Assembly: GCA_947484175.1 (NCBI GenBank)
Contig: CANKOI010000038.1
Location: 1 to 38,309 of the forward strand
Length of the DNA stretch: 38,309 nt
From: Deltaproteobacteria bacterium
GTDB lineage: Bacteria > Myxococcota_A > UBA796 > SXON01
Direction: 5' to 3'
The notes beneath the pieces were generated by a model. It searched no databases. It was given only the letters and a program-made list of their open reading frames with translations, and had not been told where the DNA came from. Positions 18,325 to 34,348 of this stretch are shown here, piece after piece. Every line of letters begins with the position of its first letter. Position 1 is the stretch's first letter. The translations under genes were made by a program, and so were the position numbers.

Positions 18325-20844
18325 GTGCGCGTGCGCGGTTCCTGGGTTCTGGCCCTCCTGTTGGCCGGCTGTGGCAACGACGGTACGGGAAAAGCCGACG
18401 ATCACGACGGCGACGGCCTGACGGAGACCGACTGCGACGACTCGGACGCCGGAGTTGGCGAAGCGTCCGTTTGGTTCGCCGACGCGGATGGCGACGGGCA
18501 TGGCTCGTCCACGGCGGCGCTCTCCGCGTGCGAGCAACCCGACGGCTACGTCACCACCCACGACGATTGCGACGACACAGCGGGCGCGCGGTTTCCCGGC
18601 AACACCGAGGTCTGCGACGGCGTCGACAACGACTGCAACGACCTCGTGGACATCGACGACCCCGGCCTCGCAGTCAGCAGCGCGCTCACCCTGTACGCCG
18701 ACCTCGACGGCGATGGGTATGGCGACGACGACCTCGCCACTAGCGGCTGCGAGCTCAGCGCCACCACCAGTCTCGAGGGCGGCGATTGTGACGATCAGGA
18801 CCCCGCGGTGCACCCGGCCGCCGCCGAGGTGTGCAACGGCTTCGACGACGACTGCGACGGCTTGGTGGACGACGACGACGACGGTGCGGAGGGCACCGCG
18901 TGGTACCTCGACGACGACGGCGACGGCTACGGGGACGACGGCACGCGCACGACCTCGTGTACGCCGCCTGAAGGAGCCGTCTCCAGCTCCGGCGACTGCG
19001 ACGATGCCGATGCGGCACGCCACCCCGGCGCGGAGGAGGCGGACTGCGCCGACCGCACCGACTACAACTGCGACGGCAGCACCGGCTACGACGATGCCGA
19101 CCACGACGGCACCCCGGCGTGCGAGGACTGCAACGACGCCGAGGCGAGCGCCTGGCCCGGCGCAGACGAAACCTGCAACGGCGTCGATGACGACTGCGAC
19201 GGCGCCACCGACGAAGCCGATGCCATCGACGGCACCGTCTGGTACGCCGACTCCGACGCCGACGGCTACGGCGACGTGTCGGTGACGACCACCGGCTGCA
19301 CGGCCCCCGCCGGCACCGTCGCCGACAACTCCGACTGCGACGACACTTCGGCTACTGTGCACCCCGGCGCGTCGGAGACCTGCAATGGCGACGACGACGA
19401 CTGCGACGGGGTGGTAGACAACCCCGAGGCGGTCACCCCGGTGCTCTGGTACGCCGATGCGGACGGCGACGGCCACGGCGATGCGACGTCGTTCACCGAG
19501 GCCTGCACGGCACCCGCCGGGCATGTCACCGACTCCACCGACTGCGACGACACCGACCCCCTCGTCAACCCCGCCGCGACCGAGCTGTGCAACGGTGTCG
19601 ACGACGACTGCGACGGCACAACCGACGAGGCCGACGCGGCCGACGTCCTCACTTGGTACGCCGACCGCGATGGCGACGGCTACGGCGACTCCGCTTCCGC
19701 CACCACCGCCTGCGAGGCGCCCGCCGACTCCGTGGCCGACTCCACGGACTGCGACGACGCCGACACCGACATCAACCCCGGCGCCGCCGAGCTGTGCAAC
19801 GGCCTCGACGACGACTGCGATGGCAACACCGACGAAGCCGACGCCCTCGACGCGCTCGTCTGGTACGTCGACGCCGACGCCGATGGCTACGGCGATGCCT
19901 CCAGCCCCACCCCCGGCTGCTCCGCACCGCTCGGCGCCCTGGCCGACAGCACCGACTGCGACGACACCGAAGCCGCCGTGAACCCCGGCGCCTCCGAGCT
20001 CTGCAACACCGTCGACGACGACTGCGACGGCGACACCGACGAAGCCGACGCCCTCGACGCCACCGCTTGGTACTTCGACGCCGACGGCGACACCTACGGC
20101 GATCCAACGCGGCTGGAGCTCGCCTGCGACCCGCCCAGCCGCGCCGTCGCCGACGACCAGGACTGCGACGACACCGACCCCACCGTAAGCCCCGTGGGCA
20201 GCGAGGTGTGCAACGGCGCGGACGACGACTGCAACGGCACGGCCGACGACAACGCCTCCGACATGCTCGAGTGGTACGAAGACGCCGATAGCGACGGCTA
20301 CGGCGACGAGTCAGGCGCCCCCGTCGACGCCTGCGACGCCCCGGCCGGCTACGTCGAGGACCTCACCGACTGCGACGACGCCGACGTGGACGTGAACCCC
20401 GGCGAGAGCGAAAGCTGCGACACGCTCGACAACGACTGCGATGGCAGCCGCGACGAAACGGGCTGCACGTGCGCCATCGAGGAGTACAGCGGAACGCTCT
20501 ACCTGTTCTGCACCACAGCGGCTACCTGGACGGCGGCGCGCACGAACTGCCTCTCCTGGGGCTACGATCTCGTGGCCATCGGCAGTTCGGCAGAAAACAT
20601 CGGGGTGGTGGACGAAGCCGTGAGCCGATCCACCTCCATGTGGTGGATCGGGTACAACGACAGCACCGTGGAAGGCACCTTTGCGTGGAGCAACGGGGAG
20701 GCCGCCGTCTACTCCAACTGGGCGAGCGGAGAGCCGAATGACACGGGCAAGAAGGAGGACTGCGCGCAGCTCTACCGCTTCACCGACTACACGTGGAACG
20801 ACGCCGCCTGCAGCTCGTCGCTCCGCTACATCTGCGAAGAGTAG
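18325..20844 (+). CDS. Lipoprotein with MopE-type metal-binding repeats and a C-terminal C-type lectin domain
   Basis: An 839-residue exported protein. The leader ends in LLLAGC (Cys16), a clear lipobox. Residues about 25-713 consist of about ten modules of some 70 residues. Each has DCDD, a NPGA/HPGA segment, CNGVDDDCDG and WYADADGDGYGD, the pattern of the MopE/putative metal-binding motif family. One module (around residues 236-270) is shortened. The last 125 residues form a C-type lectin domain with WIG, EPND and WND motifs and paired Cys, the set that binds Ca and sugar. The start is GTG 18325; GTG 18331 is nearly as good. The protein is probably a metal-stabilised stalk presenting a carbohydrate-binding head on the cell surface. 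The stop directly abuts the next start. Confidence 0.88.
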   Translation: MRVRGSWVLALLLAGCGNDGTGKADDHDGDGLTETDCDDSDAGVGEASVWFADADGDGHGSSTAALSACEQPDGYVTTHDDCDDTAGARFPGNTEVCDGVDNDCNDLVDIDDPGLAVSSALTLYADLDGDGYGDDDLATSGCELSATTSLEGGDCDDQDPAVHPAAAEVCNGFDDDCDGLVDDDDDGAEGTAWYLDDDGDGYGDDGTRTTSCTPPEGAVSSSGDCDDADAARHPGAEEADCADRTDYNCDGSTGYDDADHDGTPACEDCNDAEASAWPGADETCNGVDDDCDGATDEADAIDGTVWYADSDADGYGDVSVTTTGCTAPAGTVADNSDCDDTSATVHPGASETCNGDDDDCDGVVDNPEAVTPVLWYADADGDGHGDATSFTEACTAPAGHVTDSTDCDDTDPLVNPAATELCNGVDDDCDGTTDEADAADVLTWYADRDGDGYGDSASATTACEAPADSVADSTDCDDADTDINPGAAELCNGLDDDCDGNTDEADALDALVWYVDADADGYGDASSPTPGCSAPLGALADSTDCDDTEAAVNPGASELCNTVDDDCDGDTDEADALDATAWYFDADGDTYGDPTRLELACDPPSRAVADDQDCDDTDPTVSPVGSEVCNGADDDCNGTADDNASDMLEWYEDADSDGYGDESGAPVDACDAPAGYVEDLTDCDDADVDVNPGESESCDTLDNDCDGSRDETGCTCAIEEYSGTLYLFCTTAATWTAARTNCLSWGYDLVAIGSSAENIGVVDEAVSRSTSMWWIGYNDSTVEGTFAWSNGEAAVYSNWASGEPNDTGKKEDCAQLYRFTDYTWNDAACSSSLRYICEE
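18397..20466 (+). repeat. About ten tandem MopE-type Asp/Cys modules
   Basis: The DNA here encodes nine full modules and one short module of about 70 codons (about 210 bp) each. Every full module has a D-x-D-x-D-G calcium-type loop next to an aromatic residue and a Cys-Asp-Asp segment. Because GAC dominates, the opposite strand and other frames stay open for long stretches and give false Arg-rich or Thr/Ala-rich ORFs. Confidence 0.85.
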
Positions 20845-21698: not shown

Positions 21699-22610
21699 TT
21701 AGCGGACCGGCCGCTGCGCCCCCTCCCACTCCACCGTCACGCCGATGTTGCGGTCCCAAGGCTGAACGACCACGACCCTGAGGGCCTTGCCGGTCCATAG
21801 GGCCACGACCTCCACCTCGCGTTCGGGGCTCCAGGCGCCGAGCGTGTTGTAGTCGAGCGAGTAGGTGCCGCAGGGCTCGAAGGGGCGGGGCTCCTTGCAG
21901 CTGTGCGTGAGCGTGTGGCCCACCGGCTCGAACCATTCGGCCGAGTAGCGTGGCGCGCTGAGCCACTCGGGCCGCACCGTCATCACGAACGCCTGCCCCA
22001 CCGCCGCCCGCTTGAGGTCATCGGAAGCCGGGATCGGCCGGAGCGTACGCCCCGCTTCGTGCTTCCGTCGACCGGTGTGAAAGCGGCGCAGGTTCCTCAC
22101 CCACTCTTCGGGGCGGGAGTAGATCGACGTCGTGAGCGGATCGACGTCACGGAGGAAGAAGTCGTCCACCCACAACTCGTGCCCGCTCCCCGTGCGAATC
22201 ACGCCCGGCGCCAGCAGCTCGTACGGTTCGCCCATCGTCAGGTACGCGGGCGACACCCAGTGGGGGTCGTCGAGGGGGATGCCGAGCGTCGGCTTCTCAC
22301 CCGCCTGAAAGGACCAGCCGGGCGCCTTCGTGGGCGCATTGCCCCACACGGGCTTGGGCGGCTGGGTGCTCAGCGTGTGCGTAGGCACGAGCCAGGCTTG
22401 CGACCGGGAGTGTCCGTAGCCGGGCACCTCGAAACGCACGAACCGCCAGTCGCTGCCGCACTCGGCGCTCGCGGCCTGGGCCTCACCGCGCAGGCCCCGG
22501 GGCAACAGAACGCCCTCGGCGGGCTTGGGCGCGCAGCCCGCCGAGAAACCCTCCGAGTACGCGGGCGTGTCCTCGACGATCCACATCATCTCGGCGGGAG
22601 GGGTGGGCAT
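21699..22610 (-). CDS. Hypothetical protein
   Basis: A 303-residue protein with no recognised family. There is no signal peptide or membrane segment. The composition is rich in Trp, Pro, Glu and Arg, with six Cys. A TMGEPYELLAPGVI stretch and DPHWVSPAYL suggest a beta-rich globular domain. The ATG at 22610 overlaps the stop of the upstream CsgG/FlgO-TPR gene (ATGA), so the two are very likely co-translated and functionally linked. It converges on the ABC permease with 14 bp between them. Confidence 0.7.
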   Translation of the reverse strand: MPTPPAEMMWIVEDTPAYSEGFSAGCAPKPAEGVLLPRGLRGEAQAASAECGSDWRFVRFEVPGYGHSRSQAWLVPTHTLSTQPPKPVWGNAPTKAPGWSFQAGEKPTLGIPLDDPHWVSPAYLTMGEPYELLAPGVIRTGSGHELWVDDFFLRDVDPLTTSIYSRPEEWVRNLRRFHTGRRKHEAGRTLRPIPASDDLKRAAVGQAFVMTVRPEWLSAPRYSAEWFEPVGHTLTHSCKEPRPFEPCGTYSLDYNTLGAWSPEREVEVVALWTGKALRVVVVQPWDRNIGVTVEWEGAQRPVR

Positions 22611-24241
22611 CAGCGAAAGCTCCGCGCCGCAAACTCATCCAGCTCCTTCACGCGCCGCGCGGTGTCTTCGTCGTCGCGCGCGGGCAGCGCAGCTTGGTAG
22701 TCCAGGAGCACGCTCAGCCGCTGCTCCGCGAACCACGCCTCGTGCCACACGCCGTCGGCCAAGGAGCGCCAGCGACCGGCGAGGTCGCGGTAGTCGGAAA
22801 CGCCGAGCACCTCGGCGTAGAAGCCGGCCCGCACCCGCGCGTGGAAGGCCGCGTAGCCGGCGAGAACGAGGGCGCGATCGTCGGCGGCGGCGCGCGACGC
22901 CCGATCCTCGTCACGCACGAAGGCAGCGTCGGCTCGCGCGAGGCCAGCAAACCGAGGCTGGAACGCCTCCCAGAGGGCGCGGGCCGCGCGGGCCTCCTGC
23001 GCGGCTTCCACGGCGTCGTCGACGGTGCTCAGGAGGCGGCGGGCGGCCTCGTCGTACCCGAGACGCTGGGCTTGCTGCAGCTCCTGCCGGCGGCCGAGCA
23101 CCGCGAGATCGTAGAAGCCGTGACGTGAGGCCCAGTCGGTGGGGTTTCGCGGCCCTGAGGTGGGCGAACCGATCGGACCGGGCACTTGAAACGTTCGCAA
23201 CACCAGCGTCCACGCTTCGTCGCGGCGCCCCAGCGAGAGGAGGAGGTCGGCGTTCTCCATCCGCACCTCCCACGGCCACTCCTTGATGTCACCGAGGAGG
23301 CGCCCCACGTAGCCTGCGCTCCCGTGCTCCCGGAGCGCCGTGTGGAACGCCCCCCCCCTTGACACGCTCTCAGCGGTTGCCGCTGCGCGCTCCTCTTCCA
23401 GTGCGATGGCCCCCGCCAGATCGCCCCGCGCTTGGCGCACCCTCGCCCGCACCGCGGCCCGGGCGAGGTCGGCCACCGTGGGATTCTGCGGAAGGCTCCC
23501 GGCCACGCGGGCTTCGAGGGCGTCAACCTGCGCCCGCGCCTCGGTGACCGCCGCGTGGGCGTACTCCTCGCGCGCCGCGGCCACCTCGGCCGACACCCGC
23601 GCGAGGGCCCCCTCCGCGAGCCGAAACCCTGGCTCGAGCGCCAAGGCCTCTTGCAGCGCCTTCTCGGCCCCCGCCCTGTCCCCACGGTCGAGCGCCGTCA
23701 CCGCCCGCCCGTACGCCGTCACCGCCCCCAGCCCCTTCACCGCTACCTGGCCCACCTCGATGCGGTCCTTGGCGCCGAGCTGCAACGAGAGCGCGGCGAT
23801 CAGCTGGGCCGTCGCTTCGTCCACGAGCACAAAAAACTCCTCCCCCCGCTCGCCCACCTCCCCGCGCACTTCGCTCGCGGCGAGCACCTTCCCCGTCTCC
23901 ACCTCCACCACCCGCAGCGACACCGACAACGACGGCAGCCGCGCGCTCACGAGGTCGCCGCTCACCATGTGGGTGGCACCGAGAAGCCTCCCGGCCTGGG
24001 CGGCGGTCGCCGGGTCCAGAACGCCGTCCTTGCCCAGCTTCAGCTCCCCCAAGACCGCCGACAGCCGCTCCCGCTCCACCACCTCCAGCCCGTCCACCAG
24101 CACCAGCTTCGACACCAGCACGCTCGCCAGACCCGCGCCCGCACCGTCCAGCGAGGCATCGCCGGTGTGATTGCGGAGGTCCAGCACCGCCACGCGCGGC
24201 CCCGCGAGCGCCAGAGACAGGCCGATCAGTAGCCCGAACAA
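22610..24241 (-). CDS. CsgG/FlgO-like domain protein with TPR-type helical tail
   Basis: A 543-residue exported protein. A short leader ends in ALAG. Residues about 15-130 match the CsgG/FlgO fold: VAVLDLRNHTGD, GLEVVERERLSAVLGELKLGKDGVLDP and AGRLLGATHMVSGDL, then VVEVETGKVLAA. The rest is Ala/Arg/Glu-rich helix, with a TPR-like unit at about 175-215 (AYGRAVTALDRGDRAGAEKALQEALALEPGF). Proteins with this plan are envelope-associated and often found with secretion or surface-assembly systems; the exact job is unknown. The start is TTG 24241 with GGAAGGG upstream; no better start lies near the leader. It follows the acidic lipoprotein by 7 bp. Confidence 0.78.
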   Translation of the reverse strand: MFGLLIGLSLALAGPRVAVLDLRNHTGDASLDGAGAGLASVLVSKLVLVDGLEVVERERLSAVLGELKLGKDGVLDPATAAQAGRLLGATHMVSGDLVSARLPSLSVSLRVVEVETGKVLAASEVRGEVGERGEEFFVLVDEATAQLIAALSLQLGAKDRIEVGQVAVKGLGAVTAYGRAVTALDRGDRAGAEKALQEALALEPGFRLAEGALARVSAEVAAAREEYAHAAVTEARAQVDALEARVAGSLPQNPTVADLARAAVRARVRQARGDLAGAIALEEERAAATAESVSRGGAFHTALREHGSAGYVGRLLGDIKEWPWEVRMENADLLLSLGRRDEAWTLVLRTFQVPGPIGSPTSGPRNPTDWASRHGFYDLAVLGRRQELQQAQRLGYDEAARRLLSTVDDAVEAAQEARAARALWEAFQPRFAGLARADAAFVRDEDRASRAAADDRALVLAGYAAFHARVRAGFYAEVLGVSDYRDLAGRWRSLADGVWHEAWFAEQRLSVLLDYQAALPARDDEDTARRVKELDEFAARSFR

Positions 24242-24248
24242 CGTCGCG

Positions 24249-24908
24249 CTACCCTTCCACGATCTCGACGCACAGGGCCTCGGGCGAAACCCAGGTGAGC
24301 GTACCGTGCCCGTTCACGTCCACCTCGGGCACGAACACCCCCTCGTTCACCCCGTGGTCGTGGTAGGTGCGGTTGCTGCTGTCGTCCTGGAAGAAGGTCC
24401 AGACGTTTACGTCGCCTTCGTCGCCCGAGAGCGGGTCGGTGTCGAGCATCAGCGCGAGCTCGTACTCCTCTTCTTCGATGCGATCCTGGTCGTCGTTGTC
24501 GAGCAGCGATTCGTAGCCATCCCAGGCGCAGGTCATCGAGTCGAGCACGTAGTCGACCGTGAAGTCGCGGTCACAGCTGTAGCAGGGGTCGTCGGGAACG
24601 GGGGTAGGCTCCTCCTCGCCGTCGAGCCGGAAGCTATCTACGCAGTCGGTGGCGTCGCCGTCGTCGGGGAAGAACCAGAACCAGCTCTCGGTGCCGCGCA
24701 GCTCGGCGTCGGTGGTGATCTCACCCTCGAAGTACAAGTAGGCGGTGGCGCCGGCGGGGCATCCGACGCTCTCCACGTCCCACCCCGCGGTGATGTCTTC
24801 GGGAATGGCTTCGAGGGCGCCCCCTGCGCCCGTGTCTTCCGAACCGCCGCTCTCCGACGCTTCGGTGCAAGCCCCAACGAAAGCCAGAGGGAGAAAGAGG
24901 GCGCGCAT
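24249..24908 (-). CDS. Acidic lipoprotein of unknown function
   Basis: A 219-residue lipoprotein: leader MRALFLPLAFVGAC with the Cys at residue 14. The mature N-terminus is Ser/Glu/Gly-rich and low in complexity. The remainder is strongly acidic, with several Cys including the pair in CYSC, and many Asp. It was not recognised as a known family, but the Asp-rich character matches other secreted proteins in this window. GGAG lies five bases before the ATG at 24908. It is first in a three-gene minus-strand operon and divergent from the SPFH gene across 114 bp. Confidence 0.75.
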   Translation of the reverse strand: MRALFLPLAFVGACTEASESGGSEDTGAGGALEAIPEDITAGWDVESVGCPAGATAYLYFEGEITTDAELRGTESWFWFFPDDGDATDCVDSFRLDGEEEPTPVPDDPCYSCDRDFTVDYVLDSMTCAWDGYESLLDNDDQDRIEEEEYELALMLDTDPLSGDEGDVNVWTFFQDDSSNRTYHDHGVNEGVFVPEVDVNGHGTLTWVSPEALCVEIVEG

Positions 24909-25022
24909 GAGGACTCCGTTCGACTCCTGCCTATCGCGGTGCCCCTCCCCTGCACGCCCTCATCGTTGTGCTTACACTCTCCACCCGCGCATGAACTTCC
25001 CGCGCGGTCAAGGGGAGGGTCC

Positions 25023-26138
25023 ATGGGTCTGTGGGACACGCTGAAGGAACACGCCGGCGCACAGTTTCTCGACGTCTTGGAGTGGGCCGACGACACGCGC
25101 GACAGCGTGGTGTACCGCTTCCCCATCTTCCAGAAAGCGATTCAGGACGGCGCCAAGCTCGTCGTGCGCGAAGGGCAGACCGCCGTATTCGTATCGGAGG
25201 GCAAGCTCAGCGACGTCTTCGCCGCCGGAACCCACGACATCAGCACCCGCAACGCCCCCATCATGGGGTTCTTCGAGAGCATCAAATACGGGCTGAACAT
25301 GCCCTACAAGGGCGATGTGTACTTCGTGAACACCCGCGTGTTCGCCGACCACAAGTGGGGCACGCCCAACCCCATCCCGATCCGCGACGCCGACCTCGGG
25401 GTGGTGCGCATGCGTGGCTTCGGCAGCTTCGCCTTCCGGGTGAGCGAGCCCGCCACGTTTCTTCGGGAGGTGGTCGGCACCACCGGCCTACTCACCACCG
25501 AGGACATCACCGGTCAACTGAAGCGCAAGCTGGTGAGTGCCTTGGCCGACACGATCGGGGAAGCCAAGATTCCGCTCCTCGACCTCGTCGCCCACTACAT
25601 GGACTTCGGCGACGCCCTGCGCGACCGGCTCAACCCTTGGTTCAAAGAGAACTACGGCATCACGCTCACCGACTTCGTGGTGGAGAACATCTCCGTGCCG
25701 CCCGAAGTCGAGAAGATGATGGACAAACGCAGCTCGATGGCGCTGGCCGGCGACATGAACACCTACATGCAGTTCCAGGCGGCCAACGCGATGGAGGAGG
25801 CGGCCAAAAACCCCGATGGCGGCGGGGGGTTCATGCAGGCAGGCCTTGGACTGGCGATGGGGCAGACGATGGCGGCGCAATTGGGTCAGGCCGGCCGCCC
25901 GGCCGCGGCGCCGCCCCCGCTCCCACCGCCGCTTCCTGCCCCAGCACTGTTCCACCATGCGGGCCCCGACGGAGTGCGCAGTCAGCTCGCCCCGGCCGAT
26001 GTCGTGGCCCGAGTGAAGGCGCAGCCTGGTCGCCATCTGGTGTGGAAGGAGGGCATGGCCGCCTGGGAAGAAGCCGCCGCCGTTCCCGAGATCGCCGCGC
26101 TCCTGCGCGCCGAGCCGCCGCCGCTGCCGCCGGGGTGA
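25023..26138 (+). CDS. SPFH-domain (virion core protein/YdjI-like) protein with C-terminal GYF-like domain
   Basis: A 371-residue cytoplasmic protein. Residues about 1-240 form the SPFH/band-7-like domain of the YdjI family: LVVREGQTAVFVSEGKLSDVF, AGTHDISTRNAPIMGFF, then DLGVVRMRGFGSFAFRV. A Gly/Ala/Pro-rich linker (about 265-305, poly-Pro) leads to a small C-terminal domain with LVWKEGMAAWEEA, resembling GYF_2/DUF4339 domains. Those domains bind proline-rich peptides. The SPFH part probably forms membrane-associated oligomers. A strong AGGGGAGGG site precedes the ATG at 25023; earlier in-frame sequence belongs to the divergent lipoprotein region. A TACACT hexamer at 24973-24978 is a possible -10. 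Confidence 0.85.
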   Translation: MGLWDTLKEHAGAQFLDVLEWADDTRDSVVYRFPIFQKAIQDGAKLVVREGQTAVFVSEGKLSDVFAAGTHDISTRNAPIMGFFESIKYGLNMPYKGDVYFVNTRVFADHKWGTPNPIPIRDADLGVVRMRGFGSFAFRVSEPATFLREVVGTTGLLTTEDITGQLKRKLVSALADTIGEAKIPLLDLVAHYMDFGDALRDRLNPWFKENYGITLTDFVVENISVPPEVEKMMDKRSSMALAGDMNTYMQFQAANAMEEAAKNPDGGGGFMQAGLGLAMGQTMAAQLGQAGRPAAAPPPLPPPLPAPALFHHAGPDGVRSQLAPADVVARVKAQPGRHLVWKEGMAAWEEAAAVPEIAALLRAEPPPLPPG

Positions 26139-27217: not shown

Positions 27218-28987
<1,770 letters not shown>

Positions 28988-29033: not shown

Positions 29034-32000
29034 TCAGAACGCCTCAAGGTTGTCGAAGCCGGATCGGCAGCCGGGGTCTTCGGCGTCCGCAAACCCGTTG
29101 GTGTCGTTGTCCACGACGTCGTTGCACTGGTACGAAAGGTTGTACCCCGAGGTGTCGGCCGCGCAGTCCGAGATGCTCTGCTCGGTGTCCGACACCGGCG
29201 AGGCGCAGTCGGGGTCGAGCAGGTCCGACCAGCCGTCGCAGTCGGTGTCCACGCCGTCGTTGCAGGAGGTGGCGGGGTCGACCTCGTCGGTGTCGGCGCC
29301 TTCCGTGCAGCCCCAGTCGTCGGCGTCGAGGAGGCCGTCGCCATCGTCGTCGAGGCCGTTGTTGCACGCGGCGCCGGCGAAGCCGTCGGCTTCAAAGAGG
29401 TCGCTGCCCACGGTGCATGCGGGGTCGTCGAGGTCGCTCCAGCCGTCGCCGTCGTCGTCGAGACCGTTCTCGCACTCAGGAGTGTGCGTTTCGTCGGCGT
29501 CGAGGGCGGAATCGCAGCCGGGATCGGCCGCGTCTACGAGGCCGTCGGCGTCGTCGTCGGCAGCGTCGTTACAAACGAAGCCGCTGTCCGTCCCCGACTC
29601 CACGCCGAGCCAGGCGCAGTCGGGGTCATCCCCGTCCACCCAGCCATCGCCGTCGTCGTCCGTGCCATCCACACAACTGGAGCCGCCGGCCGACGAGGAG
29701 ACCTCGGCGTTGTCGAGCCCGGTCGTGCAGTCGGCGTCGGCAGCGTCCACACCGCCGTCGCCATCGTTGTCGAGCCCGTCGTGGCACTCCGACGGCCCGG
29801 GCGCGCCGGCCTCGGCGGTGGCGCTCACGCAGTCGGGGTCGTCTGCGTCTACCCAAGAGTCGGCGTCGTTGTCCAAGCCGTCTTCGCACACGGCGGAAAC
29901 GTCGGTCTCGGCGTCATCGCCGCCTTCGGTGCAGCCCGGGTCGTCGGCGTCGGCGAAGCCATCGCCGTCGTCGTCGAGGCCGTTGTTGCAGGCGGTGCCG
30001 GCGTAGCCTGCAACGTCGCAGTCCATGTCGAGGGCATCTGCCCAGCCGTCGGCGTCGTCGTCTTCGCCGTCGGCGCAGTCGGTGGAGAGGGTGTCTTCGG
30101 TGCTGCCGAGGCCACTCGGGCAGTCGGCGTCGTCCGCGTCGGCGAAGCCGTCGCCATCGTCGTCCACGCCGTTGCTGCATGCCGAAGACGCGTACCCGTC
30201 GCCCTCGGCGAAGCCGAGCGCGCAGTCGGCGTCGTCGTCGTCCACCCAGCCATCGGCGTCGCCATCGAGGCCATCTTCGCAGGTCGCGTCGATCGCCACC
30301 TCGGCGGCGTCAAAGGCGTCGAGGCAGTCGGCGTCGGCGGCATCCGCCGCGCCGTCGGCATCGTCGTCCACGCCGTCGTTGCAGTCTCCTGATCGGTACC
30401 CGACCTCATCCCCCTGAACGACACAATCGGGGTCGTCGGCGTCCAACCAGCCGTCGCCGTCGTCGTCGTCGCCGTTGTCGCAGTCGTCGGGCGTGACCGC
30501 CTCATCGTCGTCCCAGCCCGCCGCGCACTCGGCGTCGTCGGCGTCCACGAGGCCGTCGCCGTCGTCGTCGAGGCCGTTGTCGCAGGCGCGGCTGCCTAGG
30601 CCGAGCTCGTCGCCGGAGGCGGCGCAGTCGGCGTCCACGCTGTCGATCCACCCGTCCCCATCGCTGTCTGCGCCATCGGCGCAGTCGTCCGCCACTGCGT
30701 CTTCCACCGTGTCGAGCGCGCTGTCGCAGCCCGAGTCGGCGCTGTCGATCCGACGGTTTCCATCGTTGTCCACGCCGTCGTTGCACTCCGTGCTGCCCGC
30801 GCCCAGCTCGTCGTCCAGCGAGGCGCAATCGGGGTCGGCGGCGTCCACCCACCCGTCGCTGTCGCTATCGAGGCCGTCGTAGCAGGTGCCCGTGGGGTCG
30901 GTTTCGTCGTCGTCGCCGGCGCGGCCGCAGCCTGCGTCGTCGCCATCGGAGAGCCCATCCGCATCGTCGTCGATGCCGTTGTTGCACGCCGTCCACCCGG
31001 TGCCGGCCTCGGTGTCGCCTGTGTCACAATCGGGGTCGGCCGCGTCGGTCCAGCCGTCGCCGTCGCCGTCGCTGCCATCGGTACAGTCGCTCAGCGCGCT
31101 GTCTTCCAGCTCGTCGAAGCCGTCCGCACAGTCGGCATCGTCGCTGTCCACCGTCCGGTCGCCGTCGTTGTCCAGACCATCGTTGCAGCCTGTTGTCCCG
31201 TAGGCCACTTCCGTAGACCCCGAGGCGCAGTCCGGGTCTTCGCTGTCGAGCCACCCATCGCTGTCGTTGTCGAGGCCATCCGAGCACGCGGTGATGGCGT
31301 CGGTTTCGCTGTTGTCAGACCCGCTGGAGCAGCCCGGGTCGGCGCTGTCGGCAACCCCATCGGAGTCGTCGTCGGTGCCGTTGTTGCACGCGTACGAGCT
31401 TGACGCGGGGCCCTCGGTGGTTCCCGTGCTCGACGCACAAGCAGGGTCTTCGGTGTCGGTCCAGCCATCCCCGTCGTTGTCCACAGCGTCAGCGCAGGCG
31501 TAGTCCTCCTCGTAGTCGTCCTCCGCGCTCAGGCAGTCGGGGTCTGCGGCATCGACGAGGCCGTCGCGCGTGGTTTCGTTGTCGGCGCCGTCGTTGCACT
31601 CGGTGGCGCCGAAGCCGGCCTCGGCGGCACCCGTGGCACAGTCGGGGTCGGCGGAGTCCGCCCAGCCGTCCGCGTCGTCGTCGGCCCCGTTTTCGCAGGA
31701 CGTCGCTTCGGAGGCGCTGGAGGCGAAGAGGCAACGACTGTCGGCCCCGTCCACCGTGAAGTCGCCGTCGTTGTCGATTCCGTCATTGCACTCGCCCGCT
31801 CCGAAGCCGCTCTCCTCGATGGCGGCCGCGCAGTCGGGATCGTCCCCGTCCGTCCAGCCGTCTGCATCGCCGTCGAGCCCATCGGAGCACCCGTCGGTCT
31901 CGGTGTCGCCCTCCGCGTTCGCGCAGGCGGTGTCGGAGGCATCCTTCTGGCCGTCGCCGTCGTTGTCCACGTTGTCGTTGCAGGCCGACTCGCCGAAGCT

Positions 32001-33281
32001 CCGCTCGGTCCCCAAGAGCGCGCAGTCCGGATCTTCGTCGTCGTTCCAGCCATCGCCGTCGTTGTCAACACCGTCATCACAGTCGCCAGCTTCGCTGTCG
32101 TCCCACGCGTTCTCGCATCCGTCGTCGAAGGGATCGATCGCCCCGTCGGCGTCGTCGTCCACCCCGTTGCTGCACTCGCCTTCGTTGTCGATCCCGCCTT
32201 CCGAGTCGTCGGTCAGGTTGCTGCAACCGGGGTCGTCGAGGTCGGTCCACCCGTCGCCGTCGTCGTCCGTGCTGTTGGCACAGAGGTTCAGCTCGGAGTC
32301 GTCCGTGGCCGAGGTGCAGGCGGCGTCGTCTTTGTCGGTGTTGCCGTCAACGTCGTCGTCCTCCCCGTTGTTGCACAGGTAGTCGCTGAACCCGACCTCA
32401 TCGCTGCCCGTTAGGCAGTCAGGGTCGCGGGCATCCACCCAGCCGTCGGCGTCGTTGTCGACACCATCGTCGCAGGCGGGGCTGCCCTCGTCGTCGTCGT
32501 AGGCCGAGCCACAGTCGGGATCGGCGCCATCCGCGAGCTCGTCTTCGTCGTCGTCTTCGCCGTTGTTGCATTCCGCGTCGCCCAAACCCAGCTCGTCGCC
32601 GATGTCGTCGCAGTCGGGGTCGGCCCGGTCCGACCATCCGTCGCCGTCGTTGTCGAGCCCATCGCTGCACCGGTGGGCCTCCGCCTCCTGATAGGCGTCT
32701 TGGCAAAAGTCGTCGTCCGCGTCGATGCTCCCGTCGCCGTCGTTGTCCACGCCATCGTTGCACGCAGAGCGCCCGGGGCCCATCTCCGTCGTCCCGGCGG
32801 AGCAGTCGGGGTCGTCGAGGTCCGCCCACCCGTCGCCGTCGTTGTCGCGCCCGTCGTTGCACCCCGTGATCGGCGTCTCCAACGGGGCAAACGCGATCTC
32901 CACCTCGAAGACGGTGTCGGTCACGAACTCGAAGGGGCCGAAGGTGTCGGTGGTGACGGTCTGCGCGTCGTCGAGCCAACCGGCGCCGCTGAGCCGGAAG
33001 GGGCTGGTGTTCGCGCCCGGTTGCAGCTCAACGGTGGAGAACTCGCCGTCGCTGAACGGCACGCTCAGGCGACACTCGAACTCCGCGTCGTCGAGCACCC
33101 AGTCGGCGAGGCAGTCGTCTTCGCCCTCGTAGGGCGACTCGGGGTCGGCGAAGAGGGCAAAGCTGTCGGCTGCGGTGAGCGCCGACTCGCCAGTGACTCG
33201 CACCACGATCGCGGTGCGCCCATCGCTGGCACTCTCGCACGCGACAAGGGCCGCGAAAAACAGGAAGGAGGCTCGGCTCAT
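29034..33281 (-). CDS. Giant lipoprotein with 38 alternating Asp/Cys repeats
   Basis: A 1,415-residue exported protein. The leader MSRASFLFFAALVAC gives a lipobox with Cys15. Residues about 20-138 form a beta-rich domain of unknown family. From residue 141 to near the end run 38 units of the form C-x-D/N-G-x-D-N/D-D-x-D-G-x-x-D-x-x-D-P-x-C, linked by short acidic spacers. The odd units have Trp after the central DG (or DS/DA variants); none of the even ones do. The Asp pattern resembles thrombospondin type 3 and other calcium-binding repeats, and each unit has a Cys pair. Expected role: a long, metal-stiffened, disulfide-braced surface fibre. The ATG overlaps the stop of the PEGA gene (ATGA). 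The function of such proteins is not established. Confidence 0.88.
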   Translation of the reverse strand: MSRASFLFFAALVACESASDGRTAIVVRVTGESALTAADSFALFADPESPYEGEDDCLADWVLDDAEFECRLSVPFSDGEFSTVELQPGANTSPFRLSGAGWLDDAQTVTTDTFGPFEFVTDTVFEVEIAFAPLETPITGCNDGRDNDGDGWADLDDPDCSAGTTEMGPGRSACNDGVDNDGDGSIDADDDFCQDAYQEAEAHRCSDGLDNDGDGWSDRADPDCDDIGDELGLGDAECNNGEDDDEDELADGADPDCGSAYDDDEGSPACDDGVDNDADGWVDARDPDCLTGSDEVGFSDYLCNNGEDDDVDGNTDKDDAACTSATDDSELNLCANSTDDDGDGWTDLDDPGCSNLTDDSEGGIDNEGECSNGVDDDADGAIDPFDDGCENAWDDSEAGDCDDGVDNDGDGWNDDEDPDCALLGTERSFGESACNDNVDNDGDGQKDASDTACANAEGDTETDGCSDGLDGDADGWTDGDDPDCAAAIEESGFGAGECNDGIDNDGDFTVDGADSRCLFASSASEATSCENGADDDADGWADSADPDCATGAAEAGFGATECNDGADNETTRDGLVDAADPDCLSAEDDYEEDYACADAVDNDGDGWTDTEDPACASSTGTTEGPASSSYACNNGTDDDSDGVADSADPGCSSGSDNSETDAITACSDGLDNDSDGWLDSEDPDCASGSTEVAYGTTGCNDGLDNDGDRTVDSDDADCADGFDELEDSALSDCTDGSDGDGDGWTDAADPDCDTGDTEAGTGWTACNNGIDDDADGLSDGDDAGCGRAGDDDETDPTGTCYDGLDSDSDGWVDAADPDCASLDDELGAGSTECNDGVDNDGNRRIDSADSGCDSALDTVEDAVADDCADGADSDGDGWIDSVDADCAASGDELGLGSRACDNGLDDDGDGLVDADDAECAAGWDDDEAVTPDDCDNGDDDDGDGWLDADDPDCVVQGDEVGYRSGDCNDGVDDDADGAADAADADCLDAFDAAEVAIDATCEDGLDGDADGWVDDDDADCALGFAEGDGYASSACSNGVDDDGDGFADADDADCPSGLGSTEDTLSTDCADGEDDDADGWADALDMDCDVAGYAGTACNNGLDDDGDGFADADDPGCTEGGDDAETDVSAVCEDGLDNDADSWVDADDPDCVSATAEAGAPGPSECHDGLDNDGDGGVDAADADCTTGLDNAEVSSSAGGSSCVDGTDDDGDGWVDGDDPDCAWLGVESGTDSGFVCNDAADDDADGLVDAADPGCDSALDADETHTPECENGLDDDGDGWSDLDDPACTVGSDLFEADGFAGAACNNGLDDDGDGLLDADDWGCTEGADTDEVDPATSCNDGVDTDCDGWSDLLDPDCASPVSDTEQSISDCAADTSGYNLSYQCNDVVDNDTNGFADAEDPGCRSGFDNLEAF
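29040..32861 (-). repeat. 38 Asp/Cys units forming 19 two-unit superrepeats
   Basis: Each superrepeat is about 67 codons (about 200 bp): one Trp-type unit followed by one unit without Trp. The alternation holds over all 38 units. Unit 14 has a two-residue insertion (NETTRDGL), unit 37 has an extra Cys (TDCDGW), and units 37 and 38 are joined by a longer spacer. Cys to Cys distance inside a unit is 19 residues in almost every case. Identity between copies is moderate, so the array is old rather than freshly amplified. Confidence 0.85.
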
Positions 33282-34348
33282 GGGAGGGTCACCACGACGT
33301 CGCCTGCCGGCGCCGGTTCAGGTTGGTTGCTGGCAACGACGACCGCGGCCGTCGTTGCGGCAGCGGCGGTCCCGCCTCCCACCGCGGCCCAGAAGGCCCA
33401 CTGCTGCGTGATCGGCTTCTGCTCCGCCAGGGTGGCACCGGCGAGACGAATCGTGAGCGCACCGCTGCCTGGGACGGTGAACTTGCCGGTGACGCGCCGG
33501 TCCCCGTCGACCACCGTCACATCGAGGCGGCCTTTGGCAACGTTCGGCACCCGAGCCGGGCCCTTCGCCACCTCCACTTCGTTGAACAGCACGGCGGCGG
33601 CCACACCCACGCCCTTGACGACCACCTCCGCCCCGGCCTTGGCGAGCGTGATCTCCACGGCGCCGCGGCCGCCCTTGGTGGTGTCGACCGCACGGTAGGC
33701 GGTGGCATACCCATCCAACGAAACCTGCACGCCATGAACCCCGCGCGCCACGCCCCGGTTGCGGCTGGGGGTAGCGCCGACCTCGGCGCCGTCGAGCCGA
33801 ACGGCCGCACCGGGCGGCGTCGTGCCCACCACGATGACGCCCTCGCTCGACTCGAGCGTGAGGGCCACGACGTAGTTGCGCCCCTTCACGAGCGGGAGGG
33901 TGGCGTCGACCTGCTCAAAGCCCGGTGCCTGGGCCCGGTAGCTCAACGCCGCCGCGGTGGGCGCCGGGAGGCGAACGGGCAGCCCGTAGATCTGGTCGCC
34001 GATCACCACCTGCGCGCCCGCCGGGCCGCTGAACTCCACCGAGCCGGGACCGGGCGTGAGGACAGCCGACACGTCGAGCGTCTTGTCGACCTGAAGTTCA
34101 ACGAGGCGCACGTACGGCTCGAAGTTGTCAGCGACGACGCGCAGCGTATGCGAGCCCGCCGGCAGGTACTTGGTGAGCGGCGCAGCGCCGATGAGGGCCC
34201 CGTCGAGGTACACCTCCGCTCCCGGAACCGTGCTGCTGAGGCGCAGGACCCCCGTGGAGTCGGCCCCAAAGGCAGAGGACAGGAGCGCGAGGGCGACCAC
34301 GCCCAGTGAGACGGTCGGCATGGCGCGGAGGGTAGCACGACGGAGCAT
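33278..34348 (-). CDS. PEGA-domain protein
   Basis: A 356-residue exported protein. The leader MLRRATLRAMPTVSLGVVAL... has Arg residues followed by a hydrophobic core and an AFGA cleavage site, which favours the ATG at 34348 over that at 34321. Two or more PEGA-type repeats are visible: GVLRLSSTVPGAEVYLDGALIGAAPLTKYLPAGSHTLRV (about 33-71), and VIVVGTTPPGAAVRLDGAEVGATPSRNRGVARGVHGVQVSLDGY (about 170-215). A C-terminal hydrophobic stretch (AFWAAVGGGTAAAATTAAVVVA) could be a membrane anchor. PEGA domains are found in surface and S-layer-linked proteins. The stop overlaps the start of the giant repeat lipoprotein, so the two are probably made together. Confidence 0.85.
   Translation of the reverse strand: MLRRATLRAMPTVSLGVVALALLSSAFGADSTGVLRLSSTVPGAEVYLDGALIGAAPLTKYLPAGSHTLRVVADNFEPYVRLVELQVDKTLDVSAVLTPGPGSVEFSGPAGAQVVIGDQIYGLPVRLPAPTAAALSYRAQAPGFEQVDATLPLVKGRNYVVALTLESSEGVIVVGTTPPGAAVRLDGAEVGATPSRNRGVARGVHGVQVSLDGYATAYRAVDTTKGGRGAVEITLAKAGAEVVVKGVGVAAAVLFNEVEVAKGPARVPNVAKGRLDVTVVDGDRRVTGKFTVPGSGALTIRLAGATLAEQKPITQQWAFWAAVGGGTAAAATTAAVVVASNQPEPAPAGDVVVTLP

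Follow-up and report, generated by a model that had tools for sequence, protein, structure and literature searches.

An array of two alternating acidic repeat units in a predicted lipoprotein with a PEGA-domain partner gene

We analysed a 38,309-nucleotide stretch of DNA (the window; contig CANKOI010000038.1 of assembly GCA_947484175.1, positions 1 to 38,309) from a Deltaproteobacteria bacterium of the GTDB lineage Bacteria; Myxococcota_A; UBA796; SXON01. One of its genes encodes a protein—here referred to as the rod protein—in which a predicted lipoprotein signal peptide and an N-terminal domain are followed by 38 tandem units with C-x18-C cores. The next gene upstream, for a PEGA-domain protein, shares four bases with it. 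Asp accounts for 363 of the 1415 residues of the rod protein (26%), and the mature form (1400 residues) contains 446 Asp and Glu versus 21 Lys and Arg. A preliminary description of the window, made from its letters, had counted 38 units and about 76 Cys, which our unit listing bears out: 76 of the protein's 81 Cys belong to the units, and the others are residues 15, 57, 70, 1348 and 1373.

Read unit by unit, the array alternates between two unit types. Core position 12 is Trp in 19/19 odd units and in 0/19 even units, and the Trp/non-Trp label changes at 37/37 unit steps, a regularity that none of 200,000 shuffles equalled. The strict alternation claimed in the preliminary description is real. 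It holds for core position 12 and not for all Trp in the protein, since seven Trp lie off-site (residues 61, 102, 393, 763, 923, 1224 and 1323), four of them in the core of unit 36, an even unit, or in linkers that follow units of either parity. Further positions mark parity: among the 20-residue cores, Pro18 and Asp19 are each present in 16/19 odd versus 5/18 even units, and Asn2 in 2/19 odd versus 14/18 even units. Similarity between units follows the same rhythm, scoring 84–88 at even offsets and 64–68 at odd ones (means of 84.4 at offset 2 and 67.3 at offset 1). The period is a two-unit module averaging ~67 residues from unit starts, just as had been proposed, and Trp, core positions 2, 18 and 19, linker length and the register of a strongly conserved linker Glu agree on it. 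Tandem Repeats Finder at its default score returned a single row inside the rod gene (21 bases, 2.4 copies).

Searching the 63 genomes of the order with residues 1–138 of the rod protein returned one orthologue apiece in 34 of them (window included), distributed over families f1, f2, f4, f5 and f6. Across these 34 order-level proteins, all 607 odd sites are aromatic (575 Trp, 29 Tyr, 3 Phe), versus Trp in 10 of 611 even sites. The narrow repeat pattern had skipped some units (20–28 residues long), whose sites, 13 of the 1218, were assigned by hand for these counts, and six proteins (G007, G008, G014, G015, G017 and G019) were re-phased after one true phase slip. The two-unit pattern that the preliminary description had suggested looking for in other genomes is hence found there. 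Most orthologues keep the same number of units: 38 in 21 proteins, 46 in four, 35 in four, 21 in two, and 30, 19 and 5 once each, the five-unit protein being cut by a contig end. Unit order is kept as well. Between nine f1 and six f4 proteins, units of the same index scored a mean of 101.1 versus 88.2 ± 1.1 (maximum 92.8) in 5000 within-parity permutations; in the averaged f1/f4 matrix, the best match had the same parity for 38/38 units and the same index for 18/38. From the N-terminal domain through unit 13, all rows except G004 were 46–63% identical to the window protein. Judging by this conservation, the alternation is maintained by selection.

The two unit types differ along the whole core and in the linkers that follow. 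In 26 orthologues, comprising 491 odd and 481 even units, Asp occupies core positions 6, 8, 10, 14 and 17 in 100% (rounded) of odd and 95–100% of even units. The unit pattern itself required D/N, D/N/E, D/N and D/N/E/S at positions 6, 8, 14 and 17, respectively; in alignment A2, which was built without the repeat pattern, the same five Asp of unit 1 are invariant in 21/21 rows. Position 11 is Gly in 95% of odd units. Parity marks recur in this set, namely Asp19 (81% odd versus 35% even), Pro18 (85% versus 49%) and Asn2 (11% versus 85%), and the even site at core 12 accepts L, D, A, R, K, G and others. The 13-residue linkers after Trp units (n = 245) have Glu at +6 in 97%, Gly at +8 in 85%, Gly at +10 in 71%, and F (36%), Y (18%) or L (18%; 72% together) at +9. 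After non-Trp units, Glu stands at +8 in 99% of 117 linkers of 11 residues and in 100% of 188 linkers of 14 residues, and Asp at +5 in 71% and 90%, respectively. As the linkers and other core positions also alternate, the two-unit module is a property of core and linker and not of the Trp alone.

Beyond the order, profile A6 matched in 42 of 71 class genomes, of which G051 ends at a contig edge and G033 and G043 are weak and partial. In a sample of 377 genomes of the phylum, with up to 11 candidates scored per genome, at least 43 matched, 42 of them inside the class. The class-level relatives L218 (37 detected units), L220 (39) and L221 (27) alternate, with breaks only where the spacing implies a missed unit. 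L218 and L220 carry ~180 extra residues beyond the array which, by eye only, resemble a lamin-tail-type domain. The f7 relative L222, on the same contig as L141, is 2120 residues long, has Trp in most units and shows a four-unit pattern near its end (three Trp, one not); by eye, its C-terminal region is IPT-like. The sole listed phylum match outside the class is L227 (genome G334), a lipoprotein whose N-terminal domain resembles that of the rod protein and whose reading frame contains no repeats; given this protein, the domain may represent a broader lipoprotein family.

The remaining anatomy of the protein is collected in Table 1. On its signal peptide and lipobox Cys, the rod protein is predicted to be a lipoprotein. 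A lipobox-like motif with a Cys at the equivalent place was recognised by eye, as a pattern only, in 34/34 order-level proteins including that of the window; an automated motif search matched in 31/34, the match in G010 lying upstream of the true motif. AlphaFold modelled the N-terminal domain with nine strands and one short helix, most ten-residue blocks having a predicted local distance difference test score (pLDDT) of 57–86 and one of 44. This domain had no Pfam match in the window copy, and a set of 28 rows held only weak matches of single members (best E 0.062). The first AlphaFold model had 0/1144 Foldseek matches to the PDB at E ≤ 0.001. The top of that list consisted mostly of pilin-type proteins at E 0.005 or more, interspersed with unrelated beta proteins; these rows were not used. 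Within the array, unit 14 is irregular, its 22 residues being two more than in the other cores, and the linker past unit 37 has 26 residues. The last module (units 37 and 38) has two extra Cys, Cys1348 and Cys1373, one within core 37 and the other in the 26-residue linker; as a pair, they could form an additional disulfide. The tail past the last core is mostly 10 residues long in orthologues (11 in G029, 8 in G007 and G008, 16 in the truncated G010, 47 in G035).

Table 1 Features of the rod gene and its surroundings in the window
Feature	Position	Strand	Basis or remark
Rod protein, open reading frame	29034-33281	minus	1415 residues
Signal peptide and lipobox (L-V-A-C), ending at Cys15	33237..33281	minus	Sequence motif; predicted lipoprotein
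N-terminal domain, residues 16-140, predicted beta-sandwich	32862..33236	minus	AlphaFold
Array of 38 C-x18-C units, residues 141-1405	29067..32861	minus	Unit listing; NF033662, 38 stretches
Unit 1, residues 141-160, sample Trp-type core	32802..32861	minus	
C-terminal tail, 10 residues past the last core	29037..29066	minus	
PEGA partner gene, three PEGA domains	33278..34348	minus	Pfam (PF08308, E 1.1e-36, 3 stretches)
aspS-like class II tRNA synthetase (PF00152 and GAD domain)	27218..28987	minus	46 bases downstream of the rod gene
MopE-type protein	18325-20844	plus	839 residues; 10 PF11617 stretches
CsgG-domain protein	22610-24241	minus	PF03783, E 3.1e-16
SPFH/Band 7 protein	24171-26138	plus	Weak GYF_2 match

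The single unit is a catalogued one. NCBIfam model NF033662 (acid_disulf_rpt, acidic double-disulfide repeat) matched the rod protein in 38 stretches at E 2.6e-175 and 567.7 bits, against a curated cut-off of 41 bits; taken singly, 35/35 non-Trp units matched it, and a unit-by-unit scan of the window's genome returned no match that attained the cut-off by itself. The model describes one 32-position unit and holds no A/B alternation, unit count or partner. The claim in the preliminary description that no such system had been described consequently fails for the unit and stands for the strictly alternating, fixed-length array, of which a search of open-licence full text found no description. The repeat unit is already known; the conserved alternating array, its mostly fixed number and its constant partner are new.

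Among the other arrays of this kind listed here, few have Trp at the site and strict alternation is rare. As controls we listed arrays of at least six units, leaving out five orthologues and counting in the distant homologue L141; the list was searched partly with a pattern requiring Trp or Tyr at the site, which should favour Trp. Among the 36 arrays listed outside the orthologues, 28 lack Trp there. Among the arrays listed, strict alternation occurs in two short ones, L135 (8 units) and L154 (6 units), and a single break interrupts the alternation of L133 (7 units). The loci fetched from the order gave 15 further distinct arrays of at least five units, of which only L064 alternates. By these counts, the NF033662-type repeat appears to be widespread and mostly without alternation. 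The L064/L223 frame (genome G041), of 967 residues, has a different architecture, with 13 detected units alternating in Trp.

A structural template is available for the unit. Profiles of the Trp and non-Trp types matched the C-rich domain of teneurin-4 (7PLP) at E 2e-4 and 6e-4, respectively. No other solved chain was found at E 0.001; two further teneurin-4 entries came next at 0.023, together with one row at chance level. The teneurin-4 report (PMC9058538) describes three calcium ions and a C838–C857 disulfide in this domain, calcium I and II being coordinated like those of thrombospondin type 3 repeats. Of the ligands named there, D840, D843, N844, D845 and D847 align with core positions 3, 6, 7, 8 and 10 of the rod units, and D851, D854 and D856 with 14, 17 and 19; L849, a calcium ligand through its backbone carbonyl, aligns with core 12, the Trp site, so that this place is Leu in teneurin-4 versus Trp in odd rod units. 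C838–C857 aligns with C1–C20. Even units are often short of one ligand equivalent, that at position 19. The two systems differ in context: the teneurin-4 domain is a single domain of an animal adhesion protein, with six Cys in three disulfides (1–3, 2–5 and 4–6) and no tandem array.

The best inference from this comparison, and one well supported by the alignment, is that both unit types would bind calcium; likewise, a C1–C20 disulfide within each unit is the most plausible pairing for both types. The calcium role that the preliminary description had assigned to the Asp loops is upheld by the teneurin-4 alignment, whereas its inter-unit disulfide rungs are not indicated, because the template pairs C1 with C20 inside one unit. 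Core counts of Cys are two in 37/38 units and three in unit 37; two Cys per core allow at most one disulfide inside a unit, though the name of NF033662 suggests two.

Other calcium-binding families offer likenesses of varying closeness. In the EF-hand, helices flank a loop whose positions 1, 3, 5, 9 and 12 are acidic and whose position 6 is Gly. The rod cores display such an EF-hand/dockerin-like pattern, with Asp at 6, 8, 10, 14 and 17 and Gly at 11; taking core 6 to be loop position 1 places the rod Trp at loop position 7. EF-hand Pfam models left the rod protein unmatched at E ≤ 1, and 1/38 single units gave E 0.14. Thrombospondin type 3 repeats have a calcium core and little regular secondary structure, and we know of no Trp alternation or 33-residue spacing in them. 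The rod protein has no Pfam match of any kind at E ≤ 1, and thus none to PF02412 (thrombospondin type 3), which was also absent among the matches of 38 single Trp units. Thrombospondin type 3 repeats likewise comprise two motif types, N and C (PMC10702128), a precedent for unequal units. In a lanthanide-binding tag peptide, energy transfer from the Trp at position 7 to Tb3+ has been measured (PMC12548334). Trp at position 7 is common to these engineered tags and the rod protein; the tags are designed, and we claim no homology. Of the candidates set aside, the MopE-type motif PF11617 did not match the rod protein at E ≤ 1 and matched 2/38 Trp units weakly (best E 0.3), and the TraA/TraB system of myxobacteria, as described in PMC6372800, deals with other repeats.

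The PEGA gene accompanies the rod gene with few exceptions. Besides the window, 32 of the 33 order-level orthologues have it immediately upstream (the exception, G021, being at a contig end), as do 5/5 class-level relatives. A search for the PEGA gene itself, at E ≤ 1e-20, gave a single copy in each of 34 of the order's 63 genomes. The rod gene is present in 33 of these; the remaining one, G051, holds the start of the rod N-terminal domain at a contig end. The PEGA protein terminates in a conserved Gly/Ala-rich hydrophobic segment, with a Leu-Pro end in 37/38 copies.

Our proposed reading builds on the two unit types, their alternation, the largely kept unit count and order, the lipobox motif and the partner gene, each of which is directly supported, and would add to them calcium, disulfides, an extended shape, Trp packing, a location in the cell and cooperation with the PEGA protein. 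A long, calcium-loaded stalk, perhaps serving display, spacing or adhesion, would be carried by an envelope lipoprotein, most likely of the outer membrane. Each unit would form a 20-residue loop shut by its own C1–C20 disulfide around calcium ions, as in teneurin-4 and thrombospondin type 3 repeats. In unit A, the Trp would sit at position 7 of the calcium loop with its backbone carbonyl ligating calcium, and the linker Glu would usually follow at +6; unit B would carry a variable residue at the Trp site, with linker Asp at +5 and Glu at +8. The Trp would most likely pack inside its own two-unit module and fix the angle between the units; stacked on one another, 19 modules would give the stalk its defined length, and the product of the overlapping gene, a PEGA-domain membrane protein, would be its working partner. 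Taken whole, with 19 two-unit calcium modules building an outer-membrane lipoprotein stalk whose length is set, Trp packed in each module and the PEGA protein cooperating, the reading seems to us about evenly poised between right and wrong.

Several observations count against the stalk reading. AlphaFold models of the repeats, computed from a six-row alignment, are of low confidence (pLDDT 39–65 in the repeat blocks of residues 16–561, mean 39.7 for the last 14 units), so that neither an extended rod, nor the packing of Trp, nor the two-faced rod with Trp along one side that the preliminary description had suggested is backed by structure. The match to teneurin-4 spans 23 residues only, and equivalents of its other four Cys and of E835 are not conserved in the rod protein. 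Unit number varies, with short forms of 19, 21, 21 and 30 units, and the six re-phased order-level proteins contain one phase slip each. Further out, the alternation of the class-level L219 (18 detected units) probably slips where a unit was missed, and that of L222/L141, the f7 relative, is broken in places, with Trp in 30 of the 45 units detected. Where the linker after a Trp unit has 14 residues (n = 93), Glu is at +6 in 73%. Finally, the gene had no match in any of the 21 f3 genomes, also by profile A6 (0/21), or in eight other genomes of the order; some of these eight are incomplete assemblies, and G022 is 97% complete. Part of the order can thus do without the rod gene.

The placement of the Trp is where the strongest competing explanation departs from the stalk reading. 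The side chains might instead be exposed, giving the rod an aromatic ladder with which to stack against a polymer such as a glycan, the sugars of lipid A or a peptide, or to zip up with a second rod. The side chain at position 7 of a canonical EF-type loop is directed away from the loop core; the 29 Trp-to-Tyr and three Trp-to-Phe substitutions also suit a stacking surface, and the many residues tolerated at the even site suggest that this place in unit B is probably solvent-exposed. Set against this, near-invariance over hundreds of units is, in our judgement, more typical of packing than of a redundant surface, and the aromatic residue or Leu at +9 of the 13-residue linkers could serve as a packing partner. 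We favour packing over a surface ladder because all 607 odd sites are aromatic and Trp units have their own kind of linker; an exposed ladder is a minority option that nonetheless deserves to be taken seriously.

Two further explanations dispense with the architecture or with its function. The protein might act as a buffer for calcium or another metal, or as a mineral-nucleating surface, its value lying in the mass of Asp. The 363 Asp, the excess of Asp and Glu over Lys and Arg, and the presence of Asp at all main ligand positions would fit such a role; a buffer, however, has no need of kept unit order and count, alternating linkers or a wholly aromatic odd site, and we consider it improbable. 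Alternatively, an ancestral Trp/non-Trp pair might have been amplified by two-unit duplications, leaving a pattern without function. Such amplification predicts that same-parity units are more alike, as the offset scores indeed show (84.4 at offset 2 versus 67.3 at offset 1). Yet the pattern survives at 46–63% identity, where drift would be expected to erase a contrast of 607/607 versus 10/611, and an inherited by-product strikes us as a long shot.

Returning to the stalk reading, a more ambitious form of it would see a single-copy ruler of the myxococcal cell envelope: a disulfide-stapled calcium rod whose module number sets its length, with an ordered Trp ladder and obligate coupling to the PEGA protein. 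We put this forward tentatively, as a conjecture that would sooner fail than hold. If it were true, a ruler of 19 modules, or 23 in some lineages, would be found through much of one class, and each module would signal by optical means whether its own metal site is occupied, its Trp being at the lanthanide-tag position. Copy number usually drifts in long tandem arrays, whereas here the number, the order and the A/B alternation are largely kept across several families of the class; the array is thus well suited as a model of how a fixed length can be encoded in a repeat protein. It also informs how calcium-and-disulfide repeats of the teneurin and thrombospondin kind may make stalks outside animals. 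The Trp at the predicted metal loop offers a spectroscopic readout, and the paired PEGA gene a genetic handle on the PEGA domain.

As to the surroundings of the locus, besides the window, an aspS gene was found on the downstream side of the rod gene at 11 of 33 order-level loci and at 3 of 5 class-level ones, a neighbourhood that recurs in several families of the class; some of the loci have little DNA on that side. Coupled Asp supply from an aspS gene beside an Asp-rich protein was considered and is not supported, the gene having been found near in 11 of the 33 order-level loci. The window encodes a second Asp/Cys-rich repeat protein, the MopE-type protein, which also has a C-type lectin domain and whose gene contains a 207/414-base tandem repeat. 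The CsgG-domain protein belongs to a curli-export-type family, and an SPFH/Band 7 protein is encoded beside it.

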